Assembly (NCBI GenBank): GCA_021771715.1
Contig: JAETOO010000009.1
Span: forward strand, 59,586-123,585
Reading direction: 5' to 3'
Length of the DNA stretch: 64,000 nucleotides
From: Oscillospiraceae bacterium
GTDB taxonomy: Bacteria > Bacillota > Clostridia > Lachnospirales > Lachnospiraceae
Position numbers and translations under genes: made by a program. Below are positions 29,791-63,957 of the stretch, one piece after another (within the stretch, counting starts at the first letter, position 1; each line of letters begins with the position of its first letter). The notes beneath the pieces were generated by a model that was given only the letters and a program-made list of their open reading frames with translations, had not been told where the DNA came from and did no database searches.

Positions 29791-29819
29791 ATCATAGCGT
29801 ATCCTTGCAGAAAAAGCAA
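29791..29819 (-). promoter_or_regulatory. Promoter of pyrBI
   Basis: Minus strand TTGCTT, 17-bp spacer, TATGAT. A small inverted repeat TCCTTGC/GCAAGGA overlaps the -35. Confidence 0.7.
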
Positions 29820-29849
29820 GGATTTTCTGAAAAAAAGAGAGCAGGGGAA

Positions 29850-29878
29850 TTGAATGATAGGAAAGTTTCAGGTATAAT
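29850..29878 (+). promoter_or_regulatory. Promoter of the PH-like gene and prfC
   Basis: TTGAAT, 17-bp spacer, TATAAT, about 60 bp before the ATG at 29940. It is back to back with the pyrBI promoter. Confidence 0.75.
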
Positions 29879-29939
29879 GGTTGGGTATGTGTGGAAAAAG
29901 AAGCATAGATCTGACGGACAGGAAAGGAAGAGAGACCAT

Positions 29940-48641: not shown

Positions 48642-50405
48642 ATGAAAAAATCAGAAAAAACCAATTATTCTTTTTTTACAATTATCAATCTGACAGCGGT
48701 GCTGATGGCGGTGTTATGCCTGATTCTGCTTATGATGCTGAGTTTCTACCTGAAGAAATCTGCCGGCGACAGGTTCTATGCGAAGCTGGATAACACAATT
48801 GAGAACAATGACAGACATCTCTGGCAGGAATATTTAAATGTGGATCATCTTCTGGTGGATCTGCCTTATTACAGCGCGGATTTTTCGGAAATCATACAGG
48901 CAGAACCTTTTGATGAGGAGCAGGTTGGGAGTATTGTGCGGCTGCAGCGGCTGTTACAGGGAATCAAGCCAGGCATAGACTGCGTAGACGGGCTTTTCAT
49001 CTATTTCAGCGGCAGTGACCGGTTTTTGTCCGCAACAGAAGATCAGAATAAGGCGAAACTTTGCAATTCGATTCGGGATACCATTCGGGAACGGATGCAG
49101 GGCAAAGAGACGCTTTTGGATCAGGTTACGAACGGCTGGGAGTTTGGCTTTATAGAGGATGAGCCCTGCGTGATGAACATGATATCGCACAATGACAGTG
49201 TACTGATCGGCTCGTTTTCTCTTATGGATACAGTCATGGAAAAAAGGATGCTGTCCGTGCATGAGGATTATCAGTATTATCTGCTCGAGGAGAACGGCAG
49301 CGTTATTTGGCAGAGCGGTTCACTGCCATACCCGGATCCGTCAATGTTAACGGAAGAACTCTGTGAAATTACCTGTGACGGTGAGCGGTACTGCGCGTAT
49401 CTTACAGACATGGATTACAGCGGGATTCAGATTCTGTGCCTGTTTCCCGTCATGGATGATGCGATTGATATGAAACCGATCTATCTGTTGTCCACTGTGA
49501 TTCTGTCGGTATTTTTCCTGTTTACAGGACTCATCTGGATGTTGTTCCGGCAGCTTCTGATCCGTCCGTTTGTCGAAATGGAGCAGGTGAATCAGAAGAT
49601 TATGCAGGTTGAGGGGGTTCCGGAGCTGACATTTCCGCGTGTGAAATGCAGGGAGATCGATCAGTCCATGCGCACGGTGGAGTATCTCTGCCGGATATCA
49701 CTTGAGATGCAGAAAAACTATTACGTGGAGAAGCAGACGCGCACAAAAGTGGAGCTCGATAAATATAAGACGCAGGTGGCACCGCATTTCCTGGTAAACT
49801 GTCTGTATGCCCTGCAGAATCTTGCGGACAGCGGCTATGCGGAGAGCGAGGTGTTCTCCATGCTGATCAGTACGCTCTCCGAGCATCTGCGCTATACGTT
49901 AAGCGACCAGGAGGAGGTGTCGCTGCGGGAAGAACTCTATTATGTGGAAAACTACCTGAAGCTGACACAGGCTCGGTTTCCACTGTGTCTGGATTATGAG
50001 ATAGAGGCAGATGAGGAAGCAAAGCGCGCCACGGTCTTTACGCTGATGGTGCTGATGTTTACGGAGAATTCCATCAAGTATAATATGGTGATGGGAAATA
50101 AAATGAAGGTTACGATAACCTGTGCACGGATTACGGAAGAGAACCGTACCTTCCTGACGGTCACGCATCGCGACAGCGGAAAAGGGTACCCCGAAGAAGT
50201 ACTGGAGAAGTTAAAACGGCGTGAACCGATAGAAGACCACAGAGGTAACCATATCGGACTTCTGAACGTGATCCGGAGGCTGGAGCTGATGTATCCGGAA
50301 TCAGAGATCCGGTTTTATAGTGATTCGGGTGCTGTGGTCGAACTGAAAATGCCATATCTGCGGATGGAGGAGAAAGCGTACGATGAATTTACTGGTTGTG
50401 GATGA
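48642..50405 (+). CDS. YesM-type sensor histidine kinase
   Basis: 587 residues. Transmembrane helices lie near 15-38 and 280-303, with a sensor of about 240 residues outside. There is no clear HAMP text, then a kinase domain with H382 in 'YKTQVAPHFLVNCLYALQNLA' (a variant of the usual Q-I-N-P-H-F-L-Y-N) and an ATPase domain ('LMFTENSIKYN', 'DSGKGYP', 'HIGLLNVIRRLEL'). It likely senses a carbohydrate imported by the island. ATG 48642 lies behind GATGAGGTAGT. It overlaps the regulator gene by 23 bp. Confidence 0.92.
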   Translation: MKKSEKTNYSFFTIINLTAVLMAVLCLILLMMLSFYLKKSAGDRFYAKLDNTIENNDRHLWQEYLNVDHLLVDLPYYSADFSEIIQAEPFDEEQVGSIVRLQRLLQGIKPGIDCVDGLFIYFSGSDRFLSATEDQNKAKLCNSIRDTIRERMQGKETLLDQVTNGWEFGFIEDEPCVMNMISHNDSVLIGSFSLMDTVMEKRMLSVHEDYQYYLLEENGSVIWQSGSLPYPDPSMLTEELCEITCDGERYCAYLTDMDYSGIQILCLFPVMDDAIDMKPIYLLSTVILSVFFLFTGLIWMLFRQLLIRPFVEMEQVNQKIMQVEGVPELTFPRVKCREIDQSMRTVEYLCRISLEMQKNYYVEKQTRTKVELDKYKTQVAPHFLVNCLYALQNLADSGYAESEVFSMLISTLSEHLRYTLSDQEEVSLREELYYVENYLKLTQARFPLCLDYEIEADEEAKRATVFTLMVLMFTENSIKYNMVMGNKMKVTITCARITEENRTFLTVTHRDSGKGYPEEVLEKLKRREPIEDHRGNHIGLLNVIRRLELMYPESEIRFYSDSGAVVELKMPYLRMEEKAYDEFTGCG

Positions 50406-51165
50406 TGAATTTTTTGTGGCGGAAGGGCTTGCGAATATGCTGCGATATGAAAATCTCGAGATCGATGAGATATTCAGTGCGTACAGTGCGCAGATGGCGC
50501 AGGATATCATCAGCAGGCATGAAATATCCATATTGATTACAGATGTAGAAATGCCGGAGATGAGCGGAATGGATCTGCTGCGCTGGGTGAAAAAACACGA
50601 TCTGAATATCAGAACGATTCTGCTTACGGGGCACAAAAAGTTCGAATATGCTTATGAGGCGGTGGAGCTCGGTGTGTTGAGTTATCTGGTGAAGCCGGTA
50701 GATAAGGAAAAGCTGAAGCGCACGCTGAGCGAGGCGATCGAGGCGCATCAGAAGGAACAGGGCTTTGAAAAATGGTGGAAGAACCTTCCGAAGGAAGAGA
50801 CGGAGGCGCTGCTGAAAAATGAGACACAGAATGACACGGTTGCGCTTGTTAAGAGACTGATCCGTGAAAATATTGAGCTGCCGGAGCTTGGGCGGACATT
50901 TTTGGCCGGGAAGGTATTTCTGAATGAGGATTATCTCTCCTACATATTTCATGAAAAGTCCGGCGAGACCTTGAAATCCTATATTACCGGTGAGCGGATC
51001 AGGCGGGTCAGAGAACTGCTCGTCATGACAGATTACACGCTTGAGGTGATCGCAGAGAAGGCGGGGTTCTGCGATGTGGTGTATATGAGAAAGGTCTTTA
51101 AAAAGCAGGTGGGTGTCACCCCGAACCAGTATCGGGCGGAATATGGAAAGCTGCCACGCGGATGA
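50383..51165 (+). CDS. Short YesN-type response regulator
   Basis: 260 residues, about half the length of the other YesN protein in this window. The receiver has D54 in 'ILITDVEMPEM' and Lys in 'YLVKPV'. It is followed by an abbreviated linker and an AraC HTH pair ('AGKVFLNEDYLSYIFHEKSGETLKSYI' and 'LEVIAEKAGFCDVVYMRKVFKKQVGVTPNQYR'). The large middle domain is missing, a recognised compact variant. GGAGGAGAAAG precedes the start inside the kinase gene, indicating coupling. It probably controls the following binding-protein gene. Confidence 0.93.
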   Translation: MNLLVVDDEFFVAEGLANMLRYENLEIDEIFSAYSAQMAQDIISRHEISILITDVEMPEMSGMDLLRWVKKHDLNIRTILLTGHKKFEYAYEAVELGVLSYLVKPVDKEKLKRTLSEAIEAHQKEQGFEKWWKNLPKEETEALLKNETQNDTVALVKRLIRENIELPELGRTFLAGKVFLNEDYLSYIFHEKSGETLKSYITGERIRRVRELLVMTDYTLEVIAEKAGFCDVVYMRKVFKKQVGVTPNQYRAEYGKLPRG

Positions 51166-51200
51166 ACTTCATAATATGAATGCAGAACGGAGATATGAAA

Positions 51201-52724
51201 ATGAAGAAAAAACTTGTCAGTGTGATGTTAGCCGGCGCGATGGTATTTGGGCTGGCCGCCTGTAGCGGGAAGGCAGATGATGCAGACAAAGACAGCGGAG
51301 CGTATCCGACGATTACAATGGCAATCTCGACTTCTACGGGTCCCAGCGAGGGTTCATCCCGTGTCGAAGCGCTGATTTCGAATTATACGGAGGAGACCTA
51401 TGGCATTAAGACAGAGATTCTGAACTTTGATAGTGTCAATTATGCACAGCAGCTGCAGCTTGGATTTGCTTCCGGGGAGCAGATTGACCTGTTCTCTTCC
51501 ATTTATATCGGATATGCAAACAGTATTAATTCAGAATATGTGTATGACCTGGAGGAAGATGATCTGCTGCAGAATTATGGACAGGGCATTATTGAGACAG
51601 TAGGTCAGGCGAATCTGGAAACCTGCCGGGTCAACGGGAAAATTTATGGAATACCGAATATGAAAGAATTTTCGTCCGGAATCGGCTCTTTCATGATTCC
51701 GAAAATATATTTGGATGAAATTAGTTATGATTATGAGACTGCGCTTGCGGCACAGGGAACGGACAGGTTTGTGCTCGAGGATACGATTTTTGCGGATTAT
51801 GATGTGATTGATGATATCTTTGCGCAGTTGCATGAGGCATATCCGGATAAATATGTGTTCGAGCCGTGTAAGTTGCCAAGGCAGGTCTGTGAGGTGGACT
51901 CGGTGGGAAATGACATTTTTGGTGTGCTGTTTTCTGATTCGAAGGATCTTACGTTGGAGAATTTATTTGAAAATGAACACTGGCTGGAATATTTAAGGCA
52001 TGTGTATCAGTGGAATCAGAAGGGTTATATTTCTCCGGATGTTCTGACCGATACGATAGATATCAGTACAAAAATTGCGGCAGGAGAGGCTCTGACATAT
52101 ATTTCCGCCACAAAACCGGCGATCACGAAAGAATACGAAGAGGAGCTTGGTGATATGATTGCGTTTATGACAGGTGATTATTTCAGTGCCTCGAATATTG
52201 TGAATAATACGCCGTGGTGTATGGGATCAAACTGTGAGGATCCGGTAGCGGCGATGCAGCTGCTGAATGCATTTTACACCGACCCCGTTTTGGCAAATCT
52301 GCTCTGCTGGGGAGAGGAAGGCGTTGATTATGTGCTTGACAGCGATGGAATGGCAACAGTGCCGGAGGGAATGACAGGCGACGATGTGGTATACAAGTTT
52401 GAGGTTCGGTGGGAGACGCCGAATCAGTTCCTGGCCTATATCCCAAAGGGGCAGCCGGCAGATTTATGGGAGCAGTATGACAAAATGAATGCAGCAGCAA
52501 AGCAGTCGCTGGCCGAAGGATTTGTTTTTGATAATTCCAGTGTGCAGAATGAGTATATCGCTCTTACAAATGTGTGGGAAGAGTATGCTGCCCAGCTGAT
52601 GTTCGGGTTTGTCGATCCGGATGAGAAGACGCCGGAGTTAGTAGAAAAGCTGAAAGCAGCGGGACTTGACACCTATATGGCGGAGAAACAGAGACAGCTT
52701 GACGAATGGGCGGCTGGCTGCTAA
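51201..52724 (+). CDS. Extracellular solute-binding lipoprotein of a sugar ABC importer
   Basis: 507 residues from ATG 51201; ATGs at 51180 and 51195 are also possible, but spacing to GGAG favours 51201. The lipobox is good ('GAMVFGLAAC'). The body is a family-1-type (LplA-like) binding protein: 'IYGIPNMKEFSSGIGSFMIPKIYLDE', 'KYVFEPCKLPRQ', and a C-terminal part typical of oligosaccharide-binding proteins ending 'LDTYMAEKQRQLDEW'. It follows the kinase-regulator pair. A paralogue lies at 57778; the permeases are encoded at 55.9-57.7 kb. A hairpin terminator follows. Confidence 0.9.
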   Translation: MKKKLVSVMLAGAMVFGLAACSGKADDADKDSGAYPTITMAISTSTGPSEGSSRVEALISNYTEETYGIKTEILNFDSVNYAQQLQLGFASGEQIDLFSSIYIGYANSINSEYVYDLEEDDLLQNYGQGIIETVGQANLETCRVNGKIYGIPNMKEFSSGIGSFMIPKIYLDEISYDYETALAAQGTDRFVLEDTIFADYDVIDDIFAQLHEAYPDKYVFEPCKLPRQVCEVDSVGNDIFGVLFSDSKDLTLENLFENEHWLEYLRHVYQWNQKGYISPDVLTDTIDISTKIAAGEALTYISATKPAITKEYEEELGDMIAFMTGDYFSASNIVNNTPWCMGSNCEDPVAAMQLLNAFYTDPVLANLLCWGEEGVDYVLDSDGMATVPEGMTGDDVVYKFEVRWETPNQFLAYIPKGQPADLWEQYDKMNAAAKQSLAEGFVFDNSSVQNEYIALTNVWEEYAAQLMFGFVDPDEKTPELVEKLKAAGLDTYMAEKQRQLDEWAAGC

Positions 52725-52817: not shown

Positions 52818-52993
52818 TCTAATATTTTTACCCCTGCGTGCTAAGGTTTGTTTCTTGTGGGTTATGCACGGAGAGGCTATACTTTATCACATAAATACAA
52901 AACGGAGATATGGGAGCATTGGGGAGGACATCCCTGTCTATAGAAGTATTTCGTGTCAGGTATCGCCTTGGACAGTATGAAAGGATAGAAGAT

Positions 52994-54031
52994 ATGGAGA
53001 ACAGATTTGAAAAATGGAAAAACTTTATACTGAACAATGAAGAAAGACTCAGTGGCGGTGAAGCAACCGGAATGGCGGATGTAGTAATCGACAATGTGCA
53101 TGTTACCGTATATTCCGCTCCCTTTTTGTACAATGCAGGAATGTGGCTGCAATCGTCTGATTGGAGAATTCGGTTATACCAGAAGCATGATTTCAGCGAA
53201 AGAATCATCCGACGCACCTTCAACGAAAAGACTACAGATGGACCGGTGCACCAGCACGATTCCATTGAAATCGGGTATGTGGTAGAAGGAACGGCAAAGC
53301 AGAGAATGATGGGGAAAGAGCATCTGTTCCAGGCCGGTGATTTCTGGATCATTGATCGAAACTGTTATCACAGTGATGTCTACGAGAATAAAGATCTGTT
53401 TATGGTAACGATCGGTGTGGCGACGGAAATTTTCGATTCAGCATTTTTACAGAACATCGGGGAACCAAATTTGCAGAAGTTCCTGTCTCTCGCACTGAAG
53501 GAACAGAAACAAAATTATCAGTTTCTGCATTTTCGCCCGAAACATCAAAATGCCGGAGGCGGTGTTGTGATGGAGCGTTTTCTCAGTGAACTGGTGCACA
53601 GAGAAGTCGGCTACAAAGATATCGCAAAAGGGCTTCTGGCCAGGTTGTTTTCTTCTTTAGTTATGGAATATGAGTTTACTATGAACGGCATGGAGCGAGA
53701 TAAGGTGAACGAGCTGGTGTGTGCCGAGATCGAACAATATATTAAAGATCATTACCAAACCGTAACAATAGCAGAATTAAAAGAACAATTCCATTATCAC
53801 GGCGATTATTATAATCGCATTCTGAAAAGATACACTGGAAAAAGCTTTGTGGAATACCTGACGGATGTGCGTGTGGACAAATCAGTGCATTTCCTCAGGG
53901 AAACGGATCTGTCAGTGGAGGAAATTTCCGCTGAGATCGGTTATACAGGACAGACCGGCTTCTATAAGATTTTCAAAAACAGATATGGTATGACTCCGGG
54001 AAAATTCAGGGTTTTCTATGCATCTGCGTGA
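52994..54031 (+). CDS. AraC-family transcriptional regulator (cupin plus HTH)
   Basis: 345 residues from ATG 52994 (AAAGGATAGAAG upstream); the track ORF from 52910 has no ribosome site at proper distance. A cupin-like sensor ('PVHQHDSIEIGYVVEGTAKQRMMGKEHLFQAGDFWIIDRNCYHSD') is followed by a C-terminal AraC HTH ('VTIAELKEQFHYHGDYYNRILKRYTGKSFVEYL', 'VEEISAEIGYTGQTGFYKIFKNRYGMTPGKFR'). It lies directly upstream of the GH35-like gene and beside the first of three shared promoter boxes, so it is the best candidate regulator of that regulon. Confidence 0.9.
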   Translation: MENRFEKWKNFILNNEERLSGGEATGMADVVIDNVHVTVYSAPFLYNAGMWLQSSDWRIRLYQKHDFSERIIRRTFNEKTTDGPVHQHDSIEIGYVVEGTAKQRMMGKEHLFQAGDFWIIDRNCYHSDVYENKDLFMVTIGVATEIFDSAFLQNIGEPNLQKFLSLALKEQKQNYQFLHFRPKHQNAGGGVVMERFLSELVHREVGYKDIAKGLLARLFSSLVMEYEFTMNGMERDKVNELVCAEIEQYIKDHYQTVTIAELKEQFHYHGDYYNRILKRYTGKSFVEYLTDVRVDKSVHFLRETDLSVEEISAEIGYTGQTGFYKIFKNRYGMTPGKFRVFYASA

Positions 54032-54099: not shown

Positions 54100-54180
54100 G
54101 GTCGGAATCGGTTAATTGATGAAATGGGAAAAGTGAGTTTTGAGAATGGCATCTGTTCTTTAACAGATGTATGATAAACA
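54100..54180 (+). promoter_or_regulatory. Shared island box A, upstream of the GH35-like gene
   Basis: 'GGTCGGAATCGGTTAATTG' ... 'AAAAGTGAGTTTTGAGAATGG' ... hairpin ATCTGTT/AACAGAT ... TATGAT at 54170. No good -35, consistent with an activator-dependent promoter. Boxes B and C elsewhere in the island share these elements at the same spacing. Confidence 0.75.
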
Positions 54181-54271
54181 CAATGAGAGTCATTCTTATC
54201 TCGGACTGAACACGGGGTGGTGACGTCGAGCTTCCGTGATTAGTACATATCTTTTTGAGGAGGAATTTGCC

Positions 54272-55810
54272 ATGAAACCAATTCCATATATTCAGGGAAT
54301 CGGTAAACTTGCGACTTTATATGTTGACGGCAAACCCTTTTACTGTAGAGGGGGTGAGTTACACAATTCTGCTGCATCTTTTCCGGAGTTCATGAGCGCA
54401 AAGGTATGGCCATCCCTTCGGCCGCTGCATCTGAATACTGTAATAGCTCCGGTATACTGGGAATGCCTTGAGCCGGAAAAAGGTGTATTCGATTATGCGT
54501 TGGTTGACAGTCTGCTCGTCCAGGCCAGAGAGGAGGGCGTTCGTCTGATTCTCCTCTGGTTTGGCCTGTGGAAAAACTCCGCTTCTTCTTATATCCCGCA
54601 GTGGATGAAGCTGGACCGCGAACGTTTCTGGTTTGTTGTAAAAAGAGACGGGAAACTTCCGCTGCATCATGACAGACCTCACAGAATCGTGTCACCTTTT
54701 TGTCAGGAAGCCGTTGATGCGGATGCGAATGCTTTTTCACATCTGATGGCCCATCTGAAGGAAGTCGATGAAGAGCGCACCGTTATCATGGTACAGGTCG
54801 AAAATGAAATCGGTGTCCTGGGCGCCGACCGTGATTACAGCGAGGCTGCTGATGCTGCTTATGCTGCGCCTGTTCCTGAGATTTTGGCTGAAGCGATGGG
54901 CAGATCCGGCAGCTGGGAGGATGTGTTTGGCGAGGATGGGCCTCAGCAGTTTATGGCCTGGCATTATGCTCTCGCGGTTGAGCAGATCGCGAAGGCCGGC
55001 AAGGCGGAATATCCGCTGCCAATGTATGCAAATTGCTGGCTGGAGCAGGAACCGTGGATCCCCGGCACTTACCCGAGTGGAGGCCCTATCTCCCGAAACG
55101 TTCCGGTCTGGAGGGTTGGCGCTCCTTCGGTTGAATTGTTTGCTCCTGACATTTACGTGGATGATTACAAGGGGACCGTCGCTTTGTACGGTACGGATCA
55201 GAACCCTCTTTTCATTCCGGAGACGAGGCTGAGCGTAGCAAATTATCTATATTCCGTAGGTGCATATAATTGCATGTGCTTTTCTCCGTTCGGGATCGAG
55301 GATACCTTTGATTCGGAGAAGGAACAGGTGGATTTTGCTACGATGGAAATACTTCATATCGGTCCCGAGGCCTTCGCCAAGCAGGAATCTGTGGGCCGTG
55401 AGCTGGCCCGTGCTTTTGATTATGTATCCGGTATGGAGGATGTGATTCGCAGGGCACACGAGGAGAATCGTATCAGAGGCTTCCTCTGGACTGCGGATCA
55501 TACCGAAAAGCGCGAACTGCTGGAGCTGTCCGGAATGAATATGCACATCCGGTATCATGATCCGAAGCTTGCGGGAAGCGGTGGCCTGGTCGTTGAACTA
55601 AGCGATTATGAGTTCCTTGTGCTGGGAATTAACTGCAGCTTCCACTTTACTTCCAGGGACGGGACAAGGCTGGAAACGCTGACAAAGGAAGAGGGACAGT
55701 TTGTGGAAGGCGTATGGAAACGCGGCCGCATTTTGAATGGGGATGAGCGTTATATCAATATGTTCACGGATAAGGTCGGACTGAATTACTTCAAGTATAC
55801 GGAGGAGTAG
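54272..55810 (+). CDS. GH35-type glycosidase with DUF5597-like end (beta-galactosidase family)
   Basis: 512 residues from ATG 54272, behind GAGGAGGAATTTG. 'FYCRGGELHNSAASFPEFM', 'LHLNTVIAPVYWECLEPEKGVFDYALVD' and 'LILLWFGLWKNSASSYIPQWMK' are the GH35/DUF5597 pattern. The acid/base region is 'MVQVENEIGVLG' (E177/E179). No signal peptide is seen, so it acts on imported oligosaccharide in the cytosol. It is transcribed from box A and is followed 61 bp later by the permease genes. The substrate is probably a beta-galactoside or similar; other linkages cannot be excluded. Confidence 0.85.
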   Translation: MKPIPYIQGIGKLATLYVDGKPFYCRGGELHNSAASFPEFMSAKVWPSLRPLHLNTVIAPVYWECLEPEKGVFDYALVDSLLVQAREEGVRLILLWFGLWKNSASSYIPQWMKLDRERFWFVVKRDGKLPLHHDRPHRIVSPFCQEAVDADANAFSHLMAHLKEVDEERTVIMVQVENEIGVLGADRDYSEAADAAYAAPVPEILAEAMGRSGSWEDVFGEDGPQQFMAWHYALAVEQIAKAGKAEYPLPMYANCWLEQEPWIPGTYPSGGPISRNVPVWRVGAPSVELFAPDIYVDDYKGTVALYGTDQNPLFIPETRLSVANYLYSVGAYNCMCFSPFGIEDTFDSEKEQVDFATMEILHIGPEAFAKQESVGRELARAFDYVSGMEDVIRRAHEENRIRGFLWTADHTEKRELLELSGMNMHIRYHDPKLAGSGGLVVELSDYEFLVLGINCSFHFTSRDGTRLETLTKEEGQFVEGVWKRGRILNGDERYINMFTDKVGLNYFKYTEE

Positions 55811-55871
55811 CGCAAACCGTATTTTGGGAAATCATAAATTTACACAATTAACATTTTAAAGGGGGTATTCC

Positions 55872-56792
55872 ATGAAAACGAAAGGAAAGCTTCGGCTAAA
55901 ACGGTATTTACCGCTCTATTTTCTGTTTCTTCCGGGTGGTCTTTACTTACTGATTAATAATTACATACCTTTGGGCGGTCTTGTGATTGCATTCAAGCAG
56001 TATAACGTCCGCGATGGATTGTGGGGAAGTCCTTTTGTCGGGCTGAAAAACTTCAAATTCCTGTTTGCAACCGGAGATGCATTGCTCATTACGAGAAATA
56101 CAATTCTGTATAATGTGGTATTCATTACACTGAATACTGTGATTGGAATTGTGTTTGCAATATTTATCTGTGATGCGGTAAGCAATCGGCTCAAGAAAGT
56201 TTATCAGAGTGTGATACTTTTCCCTTATCTGATGAGTGCGGTAATTCTTGGATATATCGTATATGCTTTTCTGGGAACGGAGAATGGTATTGTGAACAAT
56301 ACAATTCTTCCGCTGTTAGGAAAGGAGCCGATCATGTGGTATCAGGAGGCGGGTTATTGGCCGTTCATTCTGACCTTTGCCAATATGTGGAAGGGTACCG
56401 GTTATGGCTGTCTGCTTTATATCTCTGCAATCAATGGAATTGATACGTCTCTTTTTGAGGCCGCTGCTTTGGACGGAGCGTCCAGATGGCAGAGAATCAA
56501 AGCCATAACTCTGCCTTCACTGGTTCCAACCATTATCACGACTACCCTGATGCACATCGGTCGAATTTTCTATTCGGATTTCGGCCTGTTCTATCAGGTA
56601 CCTCGAAATTCCGGAGCACTGTTCCGTACAACGAACGTTATTGATACTTATGTGTATCGTGGCCTGATGGAGCAATCAAACGTCGGAATGTCTGCTGCGG
56701 CAGGATTTTACCAGTCTATTATCGGTTTCCTGCTTGTCGTGCTTGCAAACTATGTGGTCCGTAAAATCAGTGAAGAGAACGCATTGTTCTAG
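55872..56792 (+). CDS. ABC sugar importer permease, LplB type
   Basis: 306 residues, six helices. 'LYFLFLPGGLYLLINNYIPLGGLVIAFKQYN' begins the protein. The cytoplasmic EAA loop, which touches the ATPase, reads 'EAAALDGASRWQRIKAITLPSLVPTI'. It pairs with the next permease. AAAGGGGGTATT precedes the ATG. No ATPase gene is present in the island, so a shared MsmK-like ATPase encoded elsewhere is likely, as in other importers of this group. Confidence 0.93.
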   Translation: MKTKGKLRLKRYLPLYFLFLPGGLYLLINNYIPLGGLVIAFKQYNVRDGLWGSPFVGLKNFKFLFATGDALLITRNTILYNVVFITLNTVIGIVFAIFICDAVSNRLKKVYQSVILFPYLMSAVILGYIVYAFLGTENGIVNNTILPLLGKEPIMWYQEAGYWPFILTFANMWKGTGYGCLLYISAINGIDTSLFEAAALDGASRWQRIKAITLPSLVPTIITTTLMHIGRIFYSDFGLFYQVPRNSGALFRTTNVIDTYVYRGLMEQSNVGMSAAAGFYQSIIGFLLVVLANYVVRKISEENALF

Positions 56793-56806
56793 AAAGGAGG
56801 TTTATT

Positions 56807-57694
56807 ATGAAAGAAAAACCATATTCTGCTTATCAGATTGTCTCCAATTTAATCATGATTCTGTGGGCTGTCATAATCATATTACCGTTTGTACTTCTGC
56901 TTATGTCATCTATCACGGAAGAGAATGCGCTTATCAGATACGGATATTCATTTTTCCCGAAAAAGCTTTCTCTGGAGTCTTATGCCTATATTTTAAACTC
57001 CGGAGAGAAGATCCTTCGGGCTTATGGCGTAAGTATCCTTGTGACAGCGGTCGGAGTCATCTTAAACGTTGCCCTTTCCGCAATGATGGCATACCCGCTT
57101 TCCGTGAAGGATCTTCCCGGCAAGCGTTTGCTGAGCTTTTATGTATTCTTCACGATGTTGTTCAATGGCGGTATCGTGCCAAGCTACATGATGTGGAGTT
57201 CCCTGGGGATCAAGGATACGATTTTCGCACAGATCTTACCGAATTTACTGGTCAGTGCCTGGAATGTCATGATCATCCGAACCTACTTTACCACCAGTAT
57301 TCCTGACTCCCTGTATGAGGCTGCGGAGATCGACGGTGCATCTCAGTTTGTGATTTTTTGGAAGGTGGTCATTCCTTTGGGAAAACCGATTCTTATTACC
57401 ATCGGAATTTTCTCCGGATTGTCTTACTGGAATGACTGGACAAATGGCCTTTATTATCTCCAGAAGAACAAAGACTTGTACAATGTGCAGAATCTGCTGA
57501 ACCAGATGGTGACCAACATTTCGTATCTGACGAAAAGCTCGTATTCCGGCATGGCAGAAGCTGCCGCAAAGATTCCTGCAACGGGCATCCAGATGGCAAT
57601 CGCTTTTGTCGCAATCCTGCCTGTTATGCTGGTCTTCCCGTTTTTACAGAAATACTACACAAAGGGTCTTACCGTTGGCAGTGTGAAGGGCTGA
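56807..57694 (+). CDS. ABC sugar importer permease, YtcP/LplC type
   Basis: 295 residues, six helices ('IVSNLIMILWAVIIILPFVLLLMSSITEE' at the start). The EAA loop is 'EAAEIDGASQFVIFWKVVIPLGKPI'. It forms the second half of the channel. 14 bp after the first permease, with AAAGGAGGTTTATT as ribosome site. The next gene is its likely binding protein. Confidence 0.93.
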   Translation: MKEKPYSAYQIVSNLIMILWAVIIILPFVLLLMSSITEENALIRYGYSFFPKKLSLESYAYILNSGEKILRAYGVSILVTAVGVILNVALSAMMAYPLSVKDLPGKRLLSFYVFFTMLFNGGIVPSYMMWSSLGIKDTIFAQILPNLLVSAWNVMIIRTYFTTSIPDSLYEAAEIDGASQFVIFWKVVIPLGKPILITIGIFSGLSYWNDWTNGLYYLQKNKDLYNVQNLLNQMVTNISYLTKSSYSGMAEAAAKIPATGIQMAIAFVAILPVMLVFPFLQKYYTKGLTVGSVKG

Positions 57695-57777
57695 TTCAAA
57701 TACCGGGACGCGGAGTCCGAAGCATGATCAATGTTATATATTATATAATATTATATATTTTAAAGGAGGATTACAAC

Positions 57778-59373
57778 ATGAAGAACAAGAAACTCATCAG
57801 CAGGCTTTTAGTGGCTGCAATGACAGCCGGAACGATTGCAGGCTACGGAAACACAGGCAGCATCGTAGCTGGCGCTGCATCCGAGGAAGGTGTGACAACT
57901 ACATCGATCGGAACTTACACGGTTGACGATCCATACCACCTTGTTTTCGAATACTGTGAGGTGAGTGATACGGATGCAGATGCAAGAGCCGCAGTTGAGG
58001 CGGCAGTCAACGAGTATATGATTCCGAATTACCAGATTGAGGTTGAGTTCCTGCCTATGAGTATTGCCGACTACTATGCGAACACTCCGCTTATGCTTAG
58101 CAGCGGCGAAGAGCTGGACGTTTTGCCAATCATGTTTTCTACCGCTTCGAGCTGGCTCAGTATGGGGGGCATCCTGGATTTAGCGCCATACATGGACAGT
58201 GAAGAGGGGCAGAAGATTATTGAGGCTCTTGGGGATGAGGAGACTGCATATGCTGCTACCTGTAACGGTGTGCTCTTCGGTTTCCCTGCAAACAAGGAGT
58301 TTTATTCCAATCGCGGTTTTCTTTTGAGAGCGGACATCTGTGATGAACTGGGATTCACGGAGAAGTACAACCTCGACAGACCGGATGCCGACATCTATGA
58401 TGGGACAGGTATTTCCTGGGAGGATGAAGAGGCGATGTTAGTTGCCGTAAAGGAAGCATATCCGGACATGACGGCGTTTTATCTGTCTACCACCGCTAAG
58501 GCGGACTTACTTTTTGATCTGTTGGATGACGGTTTTGGTGTGCTTGATATGGTTGCTGACAGAGAGGGCACCACTGTTGTTAACATGTATGAGACCGAGC
58601 AGTACAGAGAACATGTAAAGCGGATGGCGGACTGGTATGATAAGGGATATATTTACAAGGATGCAGCTACCGGTTCAACACGCGCGGATGAGATGATGCG
58701 TGCAGGCAACACCTTCTCATATCCAACAAATATCGTGCCAGGAGCTCTTATTGGTACAAATATTTCAAATGGCTGCAAGTGCTATCTTGTGCATCGTGAA
58801 CCTGAGAAAAAAGGATTCATTACAACCTCTGACGTATCCTTTATGAATGCCGGTATCGCAACGCAGTCTAAGGACCCTGAGATGGCATTTAAGTTTATTT
58901 CCGCATTGTACAGTGATCCGACCCTGTTTAACTTATGGCAGTTTGGAATCGAGGGGGTACACTATCAGCTTCTTGAGGATGGTACCGCTTACTATGTAGA
59001 AGGAGAAAATGCATCCAATTATAAGTACCATCAGAATTCCGGCTGGCAGATGGGCGACCAGTTCAAGGGGCTTGTATGGAATGACGGAACCGCTGGTCCT
59101 GATTACTGGGATGCTCTTAAGGAGCACAACCAAAAGGGAGACCGTTCTCCTGTATATGGCTTTAGGTGGGATAGCACAGAGTATTCTACCGAGTTAACAG
59201 CGCTTAATGCCATTAAGGAACAGTATATTTATCAGCTTGAGACCGGAACCTGCGGTTCTGATAACGTAGATGATCTGCTGGAGGAATTCAATGAAGCGCT
59301 CTATAACGTTGGCCTTCAGGACATAATGGATGCGAAGCAGGCACAGATTGATGCATGGCTGGCTGCCAAATAA
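57778..59373 (+). CDS. Solute-binding protein of a sugar ABC importer, lipobox cysteine replaced
   Basis: 531 residues from ATG 57778 (AAAGGAGGATTACAAC); the track ORF starts 54 bp earlier. The signal reads 'LLVAAMTAGTIAGYGNTGS'. Relatives have A-G-C at this spot, so the lipid-anchoring Cys is a Tyr (codon TAC). Cleavage could instead occur later at 'VAGAAS'. The body ('YQIEVEFLPMSIADYYANTPLMLSSGEELDVLPIMF', 'IQDIMDAKQAQIDAW'-like end) is paralogous to the 51201 product. It follows the permease pair and likely serves it. Confidence 0.88.
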   Translation: MKNKKLISRLLVAAMTAGTIAGYGNTGSIVAGAASEEGVTTTSIGTYTVDDPYHLVFEYCEVSDTDADARAAVEAAVNEYMIPNYQIEVEFLPMSIADYYANTPLMLSSGEELDVLPIMFSTASSWLSMGGILDLAPYMDSEEGQKIIEALGDEETAYAATCNGVLFGFPANKEFYSNRGFLLRADICDELGFTEKYNLDRPDADIYDGTGISWEDEEAMLVAVKEAYPDMTAFYLSTTAKADLLFDLLDDGFGVLDMVADREGTTVVNMYETEQYREHVKRMADWYDKGYIYKDAATGSTRADEMMRAGNTFSYPTNIVPGALIGTNISNGCKCYLVHREPEKKGFITTSDVSFMNAGIATQSKDPEMAFKFISALYSDPTLFNLWQFGIEGVHYQLLEDGTAYYVEGENASNYKYHQNSGWQMGDQFKGLVWNDGTAGPDYWDALKEHNQKGDRSPVYGFRWDSTEYSTELTALNAIKEQYIYQLETGTCGSDNVDDLLEEFNEALYNVGLQDIMDAKQAQIDAWLAAK

Positions 59374-59389
59374 ATAAACTCATTTAGAA

Positions 59390-59435
59390 AAAAAGAGGAC
59401 TTTTCGTTCGAAAATGGACGAAGGGTTCTCTTTTT
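59390..59435 (+). terminator. Terminator after the second solute-binding protein gene
   Basis: AAAAAAGAGGACTTTTCGTTCG pairs with CGAAGGGTTCTCTTTTT. It is almost the same sequence as the terminator at 52772, preceded in both cases by 'TAAATAAACTCATT'-like sequence. Confidence 0.82.
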
Positions 59436-59497
59436 GGCATTTCTGGTCCATGATTAATAGAATGTTCTTATATGTGAATACGTCAGATGGAACGAAA

Positions 59498-59542
59498 AGA
59501 GCCGATGGTATAGACTGACTACGGTCAATGCCATCGGCTCTT
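59498..59542 (-). terminator. Terminator of the nitroreductase gene
   Basis: AAGAGCCGATGG pairs with CCATCGGCTCTT; on the minus strand TTTCG follows. It lies 22 bp after the stop codon. Confidence 0.7.
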
Positions 59543-59563
59543 ATGGAGCACTCTTTGAGAATA

Positions 59564-60148
59564 CTATTTTTCAATATAGATTGCTCTGCCTTCTTTTCTT
59601 GGTTTAATCGGCGGATATTTGCCATTGATGTAGCCAAGGCATACGAAAACGATTGGAAGATAATCCTCCAGACCCCATTCCTTCAGAAGCGACTGCATGG
59701 AAGGATCCGCAAAAGTATCCTCCCCTCTGCCTACGATACAGCTGGATACGCCCAGATCATAGGCCTCGAGGATCATATTCTCAGCACAGCAGAAAGCATC
59801 GCCAATGCAGTTTACCAGCCCTTTCCAGGATTTTGGAATGGTTACGATGGCAAGTGCAGGGCAGTGATAGAAACCGCTCTTGATAGACATATCATCAACA
59901 ATGGAAGGCTGATCCGTGCTCACATGGCCGCCTCCGGCGCTGCGCGGCTGAGCATTTGCGTTTACAATGCCGATGCGCTGGATGAGTTCCGGGTCGTCGA
60001 TCATGACTATTTTGGGTCCCTGCAGTCCGCTTCCGCTTGGAGCGAAAAGTCCGGCCTCCTGTATCATGAGCAGCTTTTCCTTTTCAACGCGGGTTGGTAG
60101 GTATTTGCGAATAGCGCGCCTGGTGCGGATTTGTTCCAGTAAAGTCAT
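59564..60148 (-). CDS. Nitroreductase-family flavoprotein
   Basis: 194 residues. 'LLEQIRTRRAIRKYLPTRVEKEKLLMIQEAGLFAPSGSGLQGPKIVMIDD' is the FMN-binding N-terminus. 'IGDAFCCAENMILEAYDLGVSSCIVGRGEDTFADPSMQSLLKEWGL' and 'PIVFVCLGYINGKYPPIKPRK' complete the fold. It reduces quinones, nitro groups or other electron acceptors with NAD(P)H. ACAGGAGGTACTACT precedes the ATG. It is divergent from the GH3 gene, and both promoters carry copies of the box found before the GH35 gene, so it belongs to the same regulon. The physiological substrate is unknown. Confidence 0.92.
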   Translation of the reverse strand: MTLLEQIRTRRAIRKYLPTRVEKEKLLMIQEAGLFAPSGSGLQGPKIVMIDDPELIQRIGIVNANAQPRSAGGGHVSTDQPSIVDDMSIKSGFYHCPALAIVTIPKSWKGLVNCIGDAFCCAENMILEAYDLGVSSCIVGRGEDTFADPSMQSLLKEWGLEDYLPIVFVCLGYINGKYPPIKPRKEGRAIYIEK

Positions 60149-60180
60149 AGTAGTACCTCCTGTCTCAAAGATTTTATTTA

Positions 60181-60253
60181 TTTTACATCTGTTTAAGAAC
60201 AGATACCATTCTAAAAACTCACTTTTTTATTCGAAAATCAATCAATTCCGACT
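60181..60253 (-). promoter_or_regulatory. Shared island box B, upstream of the nitroreductase gene
   Basis: Reverse strand 'GTCGGAATTGATTGATT' ... 'AAAAAGTGAGTTTTTAGAATGG' ... 'ATCTGTTCTTAAACAGATG' ... TAAAAT. It matches box A over almost its full length. Confidence 0.75.
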
Positions 60254-60296
60254 ATTATTTTTCAGATAAGCCACTTCCGCCCGGGAAAAAGTAAAA

Positions 60297-60374
60297 GGTC
60301 GGAATTGGTTAGTTGCAGGAATAAAAAAGTGAGTTTTAAAAATAGCGCCGATCTCTTTCATGAAGTATGATAAA
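60297..60374 (+). promoter_or_regulatory. Shared island box C, upstream of the NagZ-like GH3 gene
   Basis: 'GGTCGGAATTGGTTAGTTG' ... 'AAAAAGTGAGTTTTAAAAAT' ... TATGAT at 60366. The distance from GTCGG to TATGAT (68 bp) is within one base of box A. The ATCTGTT hairpin is not kept here. Confidence 0.75.
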
Positions 60375-60471: not shown

Positions 60472-62169
60472 ATGGTTGATTTAAAAGCATCTCCGTTTCA
60501 TTTGTCAGAGGAAGACATTGTATGGGTAAAGGATACGATTGAGCATATGACGATTGAGGAGAAGATTGGGCAGTTGTTCTGTGTGCTTGGCACGTATCTG
60601 GATATTAGTGAACTTGTACAGAAAAATTTGGGCGGTGTCATGTATCAGCCGGGACCGGCATTGGAAATTCGTAAAAAGTATGCTGAGTTACAGTCCAGGA
60701 CAAAGGTACCGATGCTGCTGGCGGCCAATACGGAATATGGCGGGATTGGTGTCACCACGGATGGCACTCCGTTTGCGAAACCGATGCTGGTGGGGGCAAC
60801 CGATGAGGAAGAGATGGCCTACAGGTTAGGCTACGTTGCGTGCAAAGAGACCGCAGCGATTGGCGGCAACTGGTCTTTTGCACCTGTGACAGATATCGAC
60901 AGTAATTTTCGTAATCCGATTGTCAATGTACGTTCTTTCGGAAATAATCCGGATAAGGTGCTGGGAATGTGCAGGCAGTTTGTAAAGGCAGCGAAGGACG
61001 TGGGAATTGCTGCCGCAATCAAGCATTTTCCGGGCGATGGGGTGGATGACCGTGACCAGCATCTGCACTTGACGGTGAACAGCCTGTCAGCGGATGACTG
61101 GATGAATACATACGGGAGGAATTACCGGACACTGATTGAGGATGGGGCCCAGACTGTCATGGTCGGACATATTGCACAGCCGGAGTGGGTGAAGAAAATC
61201 AATCCTGAGGCCGATGAGCGGACCGCATATATGCCGGCAACACTCTCGGAAGAACTCTTAAAGGGGCTGCTTCGGGAACGGCTTGGATTCAACGGCCTGA
61301 TTGTCAGCGATGCGACTACCATGCTGGGGTTCGCCACTGCGATGAAGCGGAAAGAGGCGATTCCTGCCTGCATTATGCGCGGGCTGGATATGATTCTGTT
61401 TAACGAGAATTTTGAGGAAGATTACGCTTATATGCTGGAAGCCTATCAAAATGGAATTCTCACAGAGGAACGACTGGAAGAAGCGTTGGAGCGGATTCTG
61501 GGCTTAAAAGCCTCTTTGAGGCTGCATGAGAAAAAGAAAAACGGCACCTTGATTCCTGACGAAAGTGAATTGAAGACACTCCGATGTGCGGAGCATCTGA
61601 AATGGGCCGAGGAATGTGCGGACAGAGGGATCACTCTTGTGAAGGACACGGCGGGAATCCTGCCGCTGAAACCGGAAAAGTACCGTCGGATTGCGCTTCT
61701 CTCTATGGAGAGTGAGGGACGTGCCGGAGATACCGGGGGCTGTGCGAAGGCATTGAAGCAGTTGCTGGAAGCGGAAGGATTTCTCGTGTATGAACCGACA
61801 GGAAAAGAGCTGGATATGTTATGGTCTCCAAATCCGCCGAGCATTGCAGAAATTCAGGGAAAATATGATTTGTTCCTGTATTGCTTTAATCTGCAGGCCG
61901 TGTCGAACCAGACAACGGTGCGGTTAAACTGGAAGGCATATGAGAACTGCAATATGCCGTGGATGAATGAGGAGATCCCGACGATGGCAGTAAGCTTTGC
62001 CAATCCGTATCATTTGTATGATGCCCCTGAGATGCACACCTATATCAATGCATATTCACAGAATGAGTATACGCTGCGAAGTGTTGTAGAGAAACTGGTA
62101 GGAAGAAGCGAGTTTAAAGGGATTAGTCCGGTCGATCCATTCTGCGGACTTCCGGAAGCGAGATTTTAA
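60472..62169 (+). CDS. GH3 enzyme, NagZ-like (beta-N-acetylhexosaminidase type)
   Basis: 565 residues. 'MTIEEKIGQLFCV' is the family start, and 'KHFPGDGVDDRDQHLHLTVN' (K184 onward) carries the Asp/His pair of the NagZ subgroup. Nucleophile D280 lies in 'GLIVSDATTMLGF'. It has a C-terminal domain ('ADRGITLVKDTAGILPLKPEKYRRIALLSME') like multi-domain NagZ homologues. There is no signal peptide, so it is cytosolic. It likely removes terminal hexosamine or glucose units from imported sugars; some relatives act as phosphorylases. ATG 60472 follows a weak site (TAGGAGTAGAGAT). Expressed from box C. Confidence 0.88.
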   Translation: MVDLKASPFHLSEEDIVWVKDTIEHMTIEEKIGQLFCVLGTYLDISELVQKNLGGVMYQPGPALEIRKKYAELQSRTKVPMLLAANTEYGGIGVTTDGTPFAKPMLVGATDEEEMAYRLGYVACKETAAIGGNWSFAPVTDIDSNFRNPIVNVRSFGNNPDKVLGMCRQFVKAAKDVGIAAAIKHFPGDGVDDRDQHLHLTVNSLSADDWMNTYGRNYRTLIEDGAQTVMVGHIAQPEWVKKINPEADERTAYMPATLSEELLKGLLRERLGFNGLIVSDATTMLGFATAMKRKEAIPACIMRGLDMILFNENFEEDYAYMLEAYQNGILTEERLEEALERILGLKASLRLHEKKKNGTLIPDESELKTLRCAEHLKWAEECADRGITLVKDTAGILPLKPEKYRRIALLSMESEGRAGDTGGCAKALKQLLEAEGFLVYEPTGKELDMLWSPNPPSIAEIQGKYDLFLYCFNLQAVSNQTTVRLNWKAYENCNMPWMNEEIPTMAVSFANPYHLYDAPEMHTYINAYSQNEYTLRSVVEKLVGRSEFKGISPVDPFCGLPEARF

Positions 62170-62829: not shown

Positions 62830-62898
62830 ATGAAAATGATACTGTCAGGCAGATTGGAGAAATTTTTCAATAGGAATGAGGCAGCAGGAGGAGGAATT

Positions 62899-63957
62899 AT
62901 GACAAGTATATGTTTTCCGGAGTTTTTAACACGGGATCAGATTCACCCGGATCCGCCGGAGGTCACAGAACGCAAGGTAGAGGCCCTTGTGGCGGCGCTG
63001 ACGCTGGACGAAAAGATATCTTTGCTTGGCGGTTCCAGAGAGCCCGAATGTAAGGGAAAGCTTGGGAATGCGGGCTATATGTGGGGTGTGCCGCGTCTCG
63101 GCATTCCTGAGATAGTGATGTATGACGGTCCGGCCGGCATTACCGGCATTGTGGATACGACAGGCCTGCCGCAGCCAAGCCTTCTGGGATGCACCTTTGA
63201 TGATGAGATGGCGTATGCCTTTGGCAAAGTAGCAGCTACAGAGGCTCAGGCGTGTTCCGGCAACTTTGTTCTGGCTCCGCAGGTTGATGTAATCCGGTCT
63301 CCGCATTTTGGGCGCAATAAGGATATGAAGAGTGAGGACAGCTACGTGGCTTCCCGTATGGCCGTGGCTGAAGTCCGGGGCATGCAGGAAAACGGAGCGG
63401 TCGGCACCCTGAAGCATTATGCGGCGGCGAACTTAGCGGGGGAGAGCGCATCCTGCTATCCCCGCGCGGTGGTTGATGAGCAGACGCTGCATGAGGTGTA
63501 CCTGCGCCCCTTCCGGTGGGCCATCCGCAAGGGCGGCGCAGGCTGCATCATGAATGCATATAACTATATCAACGAGGAATATATGTCGGCGAACCGTCAC
63601 CTCAATGAGGATGTGCTTCGCGGCTGGTGGGGATTCCAGGGAGCAATGATGAGCGACTGGGGGTCCGTACACAAATTCACACTCAACAAGGGGATGGATA
63701 TTGAGATGCCGTTCCCGGCCTACAATGACCGAAAGCACATATTCCGTCATTTGCGCAAGGGAGATTACAGCTTTGACGAGATTGATATGTCGGTGAGAAG
63801 GATTCTCCACAGCATGGCAGCAGCAGGGCTGTTGTCGCTGGTGGAGCTGGATGATGACGGCAGGGCAAAGGTGGATGAGAACCACCCGTTTCCCTTAGTT
63901 AAAGATATTGTTGGGTATCTCAAGATGTGTCATTCGATTTTGCCGATAAAGCGGTAG
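62899..63957 (+). pseudogene. GH3 beta-glucosidase, cut short near residue 345
   Basis: From ATG 62899 (GCAGGAGGAGGAATT) the ORF encodes 352 residues: the barrel domain with 'YDGPAGITG', 'GTLKHYAAANLAGES', and nucleophile D253 in 'MMSDWGSVH'. Family members continue with an alpha/beta sandwich and FnIII domain (700-800 residues in total). Here the reading frame runs through 'NHPFPLVKDIVGYL' and stops soon after, at the point where serine-recombinase-like sequence begins on the other strand. It lacks the domain that usually gives the acid/base residue and is probably inactive. Confidence 0.8.

Follow-up and report, generated by a model that had tools for sequence, protein, structure and literature searches.

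Two-part sites at three promoters of a GH35/GH3 gene island and the local AraC-type protein that probably binds them

Three promoters in a gene island of an Oscillospiraceae bacterium share one long sequence, which raises the question of which protein reads it and to what effect. The window analysed here is a stretch of 64,000 nucleotides from contig JAETOO010000009.1 (assembly GCA_021771715.1), in which a sequence-only reading had placed three promoter boxes, at 54100, 60181 (minus strand) and 60297. The boxes are real, and these positions lie within a few bases of their edges, the GTCGG starts being at 54101 (+), 60252 (-) and 60298 (+). The features of the island are collected in Table 1.

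Table 1. Promoter elements and genes of the island, by position in the window. H1 and H2 are the upstream and downstream half-sites.
Feature	Position	Strand	Sequence or remark
YesM-type histidine kinase	48642..50405	+	Pfam His_kinase 4e-17
YesN-type response regulator (AraC HTH), alternative candidate binder	50383..51165	+	Pfam
AraC-family regulator, putative box binder	52910..54031	+	start codon 52910 or 52994
H1, GH35 promoter	54101..54118	+	GTCGGAATCGGTTAATTG
H2, GH35 promoter	54133..54149	+	GTGAGTTTTGAGAATGG; 37 bp before -10 start
Perfect dyad, GH35 promoter, between H2 and -10	54151..54168	+	ATCTGTTCTTTAACAGAT
-10 hexamer, GH35 promoter	54170..54175	+	TATGAT
GH35-type beta-galactosidase	54236..55810	+	likely start 54273; NCBIfam GH35_fam 6e-147, just under cutoff; Pfam DUF5597
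Rest of GH35 operon (GH35 first)			permeases 55872 and 56807, then solute-binding protein 57724
Nitroreductase-family flavoprotein, behind minus-strand box	59564..60148	-	Pfam 5e-19
-10 hexamer, nitroreductase promoter	60180..60185	-	TAAAAT
Perfect dyad, nitroreductase promoter, between H2 and -10	60187..60204	-	ATCTGTTCTTAAACAGAT
H2, nitroreductase promoter	60206..60222	-	GTGAGTTTTTAGAATGG
H1, nitroreductase promoter	60235..60252	-	GTCGGAATTGATTGATTT
H1, GH3 promoter	60298..60315	+	GTCGGAATTGGTTAGTTG; box ranks 1st by relatives-only matrix
H2, GH3 promoter	60329..60345	+	GTGAGTTTTAAAAATAG
-10 hexamer, GH3 promoter	60366..60371	+	TATGAT
GH3 glycosidase, behind third box	60472..62169	+	Pfam Glyco_hydro_3 7e-62
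Genes downstream of GH3 60472			HAD hydrolase (62194), then second GH3 (62830)

Two blocks are common to all three boxes, as had been described: GTCGGAATyGrTTrrTT and AAAAGTGAGTTTTnAnAATnG. The exact word AAAAGTGAGTTTT occurs three times in the 64 kb, once per box. The distance from GTCGG to the -10 hexamer, given earlier as 67-69 bp, was measured as 69, 67 and 68 bp for the boxes at 54101, 60252 and 60298, respectively. The gap between the blocks varies (28, 26 and 27 bp at the GH35, nitroreductase and GH3 promoters), and the start of the second block, AAAAGTGAG, stands exactly 41 bp before the -10 hexamer in all three boxes, as GTGAG stands 37 bp before it. The position of the second block relative to the -10 is thus the more telling constant. 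The absence of a good -35 element was likewise confirmed, the best matches to TTGACA at a spacing of 16-18 bp being 4/6, 3/6 and 2/6. An H2-like block with TATAAT at 29806-29879, ahead of a small frame that precedes prfC, has no H1 and was judged to be a chance occurrence.

The genes behind the boxes are GH35, nitroreductase and GH3 genes, in agreement with their first annotation. The protein at 52910 carries a two-HTH AraC DNA-binding domain (Pfam HTH_18 1.2e-18, HTH_AraC 2.6e-14) and an N-terminal cupin sensor domain (Pfam AraC_binding 8e-7, Cupin_2 1e-8). The island also contains two different DUF3502 solute-binding proteins, one behind the YesMN pair (51180-52724) and one behind the permeases (57724-59373). 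The second GH3 frame (62830-63957) is only 375 aa long, corresponds to no more than the N-terminal portion of complete GH3 models, and is truncated or frameshifted close to where the contig stops.

A profile built from the three boxes was run against the 4.18-Mb genome, and the island boxes were its only strong matches (E 6e-24, 3e-22 and 1e-20). The motif is therefore not scattered in a random-like manner, and in its own genome the site defines an island regulon; the contig (123,585 bases) ends together with the window (contig positions 59586-123585), so that other contigs may hold additional members. The GTCGG block is missing from the fourth match (C44:16865, E 0.019). With an ungapped 41-base pattern only the GH35 box was recovered, since block spacing in the other boxes differs by 1-2 bp. 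The gapped pattern GTCGGAATN17-21AAAAGTGAGTTT gave four matches in the genomes of 85,462 species, which is about the number estimated for chance, and the match in Paenibacillus stands ahead of an unrelated frame, with no -10 like those of the boxes. A literature search with the letters of the motif returned no match among the papers covered.

The three boxes might be recent duplicates of one promoter within the island, in which case their shared sequence would overstate functional constraint. The GH35 and nitroreductase copies are indeed nearly identical from the second block through the -10, including an 18-bp dyad (18/20). However, similarity between the copies falls to background beyond the box edges (5-7/20 in the leaders), the variation lies in the spacers with the blocks and their register kept, and the layout recurs in distant genomes. 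We therefore regard duplication as a very unlikely full account, and duplication followed by selection would agree with the explanation preferred below.

The dyad, about which the sequence-only reading was silent, has the consensus ATCTGTTCTTwAACAGAT and occurs in two of the three promoters. Its exact form is found in the genome at 54151-54168 and 60187-60204 only, together with one copy with a single mismatch (C44:72860). It is a perfect inverted repeat between the -35 and -10 positions and is exact at these two island promoters only, so the true regulatory site could be a repressor operator, ATCTGTTnnnnAACAGAT, with the long blocks serving constitutive promoter strength only. This is extremely improbable, because neither the GH3 promoter nor the boxes of related regulators have the dyad, whereas it is the long blocks that are shared with AraC relatives. 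The dyad is possibly the operator of a second regulator and, as such, may add to the control proposed below and not compete with it.

The identity of the binder was approached through relatives of the AraC protein. Searches of the genus (47 genomes), the family (397) and the class (283) found no close ortholog; the best relatives mostly share 32-39% identity over the sensor and DNA-binding parts, and in their tree the window protein sits on a very long branch. The motif search in relatives revealed a homologous two-block box beside the nearest of them, with its register to the -10 unchanged. At each of the four relatives examined from the genus, a box begins with GTCGGAAT, GTCGGAAA or GTCGCAAT and is followed by a -10 hexamer 67-70 bp later. 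Among 32 loci of AraC relatives, 23 clear boxes were found with the consensus GTCGGAWTnGGTAACTTT / GCRGAGTTAnGAAATTG / TATAAT. H1 and H2 are 29-33 bp apart in these boxes (32, 30 and 31 bp in the window), and H2 begins 36-38 bp before the -10, exactly 37 bp in 13 of 23, the value of all three window copies. About nine of the 32 loci showed no clear box in the 1.5 kb retrieved, although for several of them a box lies a few kb farther off. In 20 regions of up to 20 kb, there was one box apiece. At the closest AraC relatives (L063 and L064), the box lies directly 3' of araC, as it does in the window, and at locus L119 (G341:C9) araC is followed directly by the box and then by a gene for a lacZ-type beta-galactosidase. 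The genes behind the relatives' boxes we take to be mostly araA, with a few coding for an FGGY-type kinase, a phosphoketolase or a GPH-type transporter; a lacZ-type beta-galactosidase follows in few cases. The expectation that the motif would occur only upstream of glycan genes thus holds loosely: it fails for the nitroreductase inside the island and for the relatives, whose boxes precede mainly araA and pentose genes.

As the relatives' boxes used for the matrix had been picked with a window-derived 8-mer (at most one mismatch), word counts were also made in the flanks of AraC relatives without this 8-mer, and GGTAACTTT and GTCGGAATA were among the most widespread words. With a matrix from the relatives only, the window boxes rank 1st, 2nd (the GH35 promoter box) and 5th among about 128,000 positions, with scores of 23.5, 19.9 and 10.3, compared with best scores in 40 simulated 64-kb sequences of 2.6 on average and 13.8 at most. 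Two boxes are thus individually significant, and the third, the minus-strand box, which at 10.3 stays below the simulated maximum, is carried by its identity to the other two. A covariance model of the relatives detected none of the three window boxes with filters on and gave weak matches to one or two of them with filters off (E 0.007 and 0.18), since the downstream half-site has diverged. The same model was run over the family, and matches of E up to 2e-5 in the 377 genomes outside the training set were counted as strong. Eight of the nine strong boxes lay in genomes with an AraC relative, which make up 26 of the 377 (Fisher p = 1.4e-9), and seven of these eight were on the same contig as the relative, within 7 kb of it.

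The box does not accompany the enzyme in this way. It was not found at loci of GH35 relatives (37-51% identity), which indicates that the motif follows the regulator and not the enzyme. A GH35-relative peptide scan of genome contigs found none. The bacterium has a second GH35 gene elsewhere in its genome (G000:C41:57099-58568, L058), whose product is 46% identical and which has no box.

The regulator followed by the box could still be the YesN-type protein at 50383, acting with the kinase at 48642, in which case the AraC protein would act elsewhere. The YesMN genes lie in the same island and adjoin a solute-binding protein gene, the DNA-binding domain of YesN is also of AraC type, and YesN-type response regulators, too, use tandem repeats with large spacers (PMC8579813). 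However, only 2 of the 20 box regions of relatives contained a YesM-like kinase (at a distance of up to about 10 kb), so that YesMN does not regularly co-occur with the box, which makes the response regulator the less likely binder. Moreover, most YesN matches in those regions are only the HTH of the AraC relative itself, and the first recognition helix of YesN (NEDYLSYIF) lacks the DYxNR that AraC 52910 and its relatives have in common. Binding by the YesN-type protein is hence considered unlikely. The AraC protein is very probably the binder, as its distant relatives adjoin the same kind of site at arabinose and galactose genes; phylogenetic footprinting beside these relatives thereby supports the original proposal of an activator site, likely for the protein at 52994.

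What had been described as one long promoter box is correct in sequence, but it is better seen as a pair of half-sites. Compared with each other at zero offset, the relatives' half-sites match at 8.7 of 17 positions as direct repeats against 1.1 of 17 as inverted ones; in the window copies alone, the direct-repeat match is weak (6/17). At L119 the upstream block is degenerate (GATCGCCTAAGGTAAC), and the downstream block reads GTCGGGAATAGGACTTG, 37 bp before TATAAT. Its H2, GTCGGGAATAGG, at the same 37 bp, shows both blocks to be one kind of half-site. Paired, similar half-sites of about 17 bp in fixed phase were thus found in the relatives and at L119. H2 ends some 33 bp ahead of the predicted transcription start, at the -35 position, and AraC-type proteins that activate in the class II manner use a half-site in this geometry. 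The window promoters have this geometry, with H2 adjoining the -35 position, a poor -35 and a conserved distance to the -10. In the relatives, the end of H2 supplies TTG about 17 bp from the -10, where the window copies have TGG, TGG and TAG.

Taken together, we consider it probable (about 0.84) that the boxes are tandem half-sites of the AraC/XylS-type class II activator 52910/52994 and that they drive three transcription units. Each box would consist of two AraC-type half-sites of about 17 bp that form a direct repeat with a period of 30-32 bp, close to three turns of the helix. With the -10 hexamer assumed at -12 to -7, H2 would span about -49 to -33 and touch the missing -35. The AraC protein, probably a dimer with a sugar ligand in its cupin domain, would bind the pair of half-sites and recruit RNA polymerase to the three promoters lacking a -35, so that the GH35-transporter operon, the nitroreductase gene and the GH3-HAD-GH3 operon would be switched on jointly. 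We infer binding, and activation rather than repression. Our guess for the inducer is a galactose- or arabinose-containing oligosaccharide, given the GH35 and GH3 genes here and the araA and lacZ-type targets of the relatives.

The protein and its site also appear to differ from the relatives in parallel. Recognition helix 1 is similar (HGDYYNRIL with DYYNR in the window protein, QEDYFNRLI with DYFNR in the relatives), helix 2 differs (TGQTGFYKIF vs HNKGYFYKIF), and the 3' parts of the half-sites differ as well. It is suggestive that the likeness of helix 1 fits the kept GTCGGAAT and the change in helix 2 fits the changed 3' parts. We tentatively propose, as a scenario that may well prove wrong, that a pentose-type AraC lineage, common in the family and having one araA site, was recruited to an acquired GH35/GH3 island, where helix 2 and the matching half of the site would have changed together, the sites risen to three and two of them gained the 18-bp dyad for a second regulator.

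The type of switch is ordinary and its mechanism familiar; the recognition sequence is newly defined. A concrete sequence can now be assigned to a large AraC group in one family, the araA-side regulators included, and its promoter register is readable across genomes. The divergent window member offers a natural pair for studying joint change of an AraC protein and its site.

The closest comparison is with the araA-side AraC regulators of the same family (L038-L090), which share the H1 core GTCGGAAT.GG, the register to the -10 and, in L063/L064, the araC-box-gene layout. They differ from the window in protein sequence (mostly 32-39% identity), in H2 and in the 3' part of H1, and they have one box per neighbourhood and mainly pentose targets, whereas the window has three boxes and GH35/GH3 targets. 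In Caldicellulosiruptor, AraC-family sugar regulators are described as having tandem-repeat sites that are widely spaced and lie ahead of the promoter (PMC8579813). Those of Caldicellulosiruptor bescii resemble the window in having a local AraC-type regulator with sugar-uptake and polysaccharide-degradation targets (PMC8579813), but they belong to another group of organisms, the window has three sites per local regulator, and the likeness is one of description. AraC-family rhamnose regulators of Bacillales, Bacteroides and Enterococcus recognise direct repeats upstream of sugar genes with a periodicity of 21 bp (PMC3870299), compared with 30-32 bp in the window. E. coli RhaR has 17-bp half-sites with a 17-bp spacer (a period of about 34 bp), and a RhaS half-site reaches the -35 (PMC12858550). 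RhaS/RhaR are thus like the window in their 17-bp half-sites set far apart and, for RhaS, in the downstream half-site at the -35. Their sites are inverted repeats (PMC3870299), whereas half-sites of the window type match each other as direct and not as inverted repeats.
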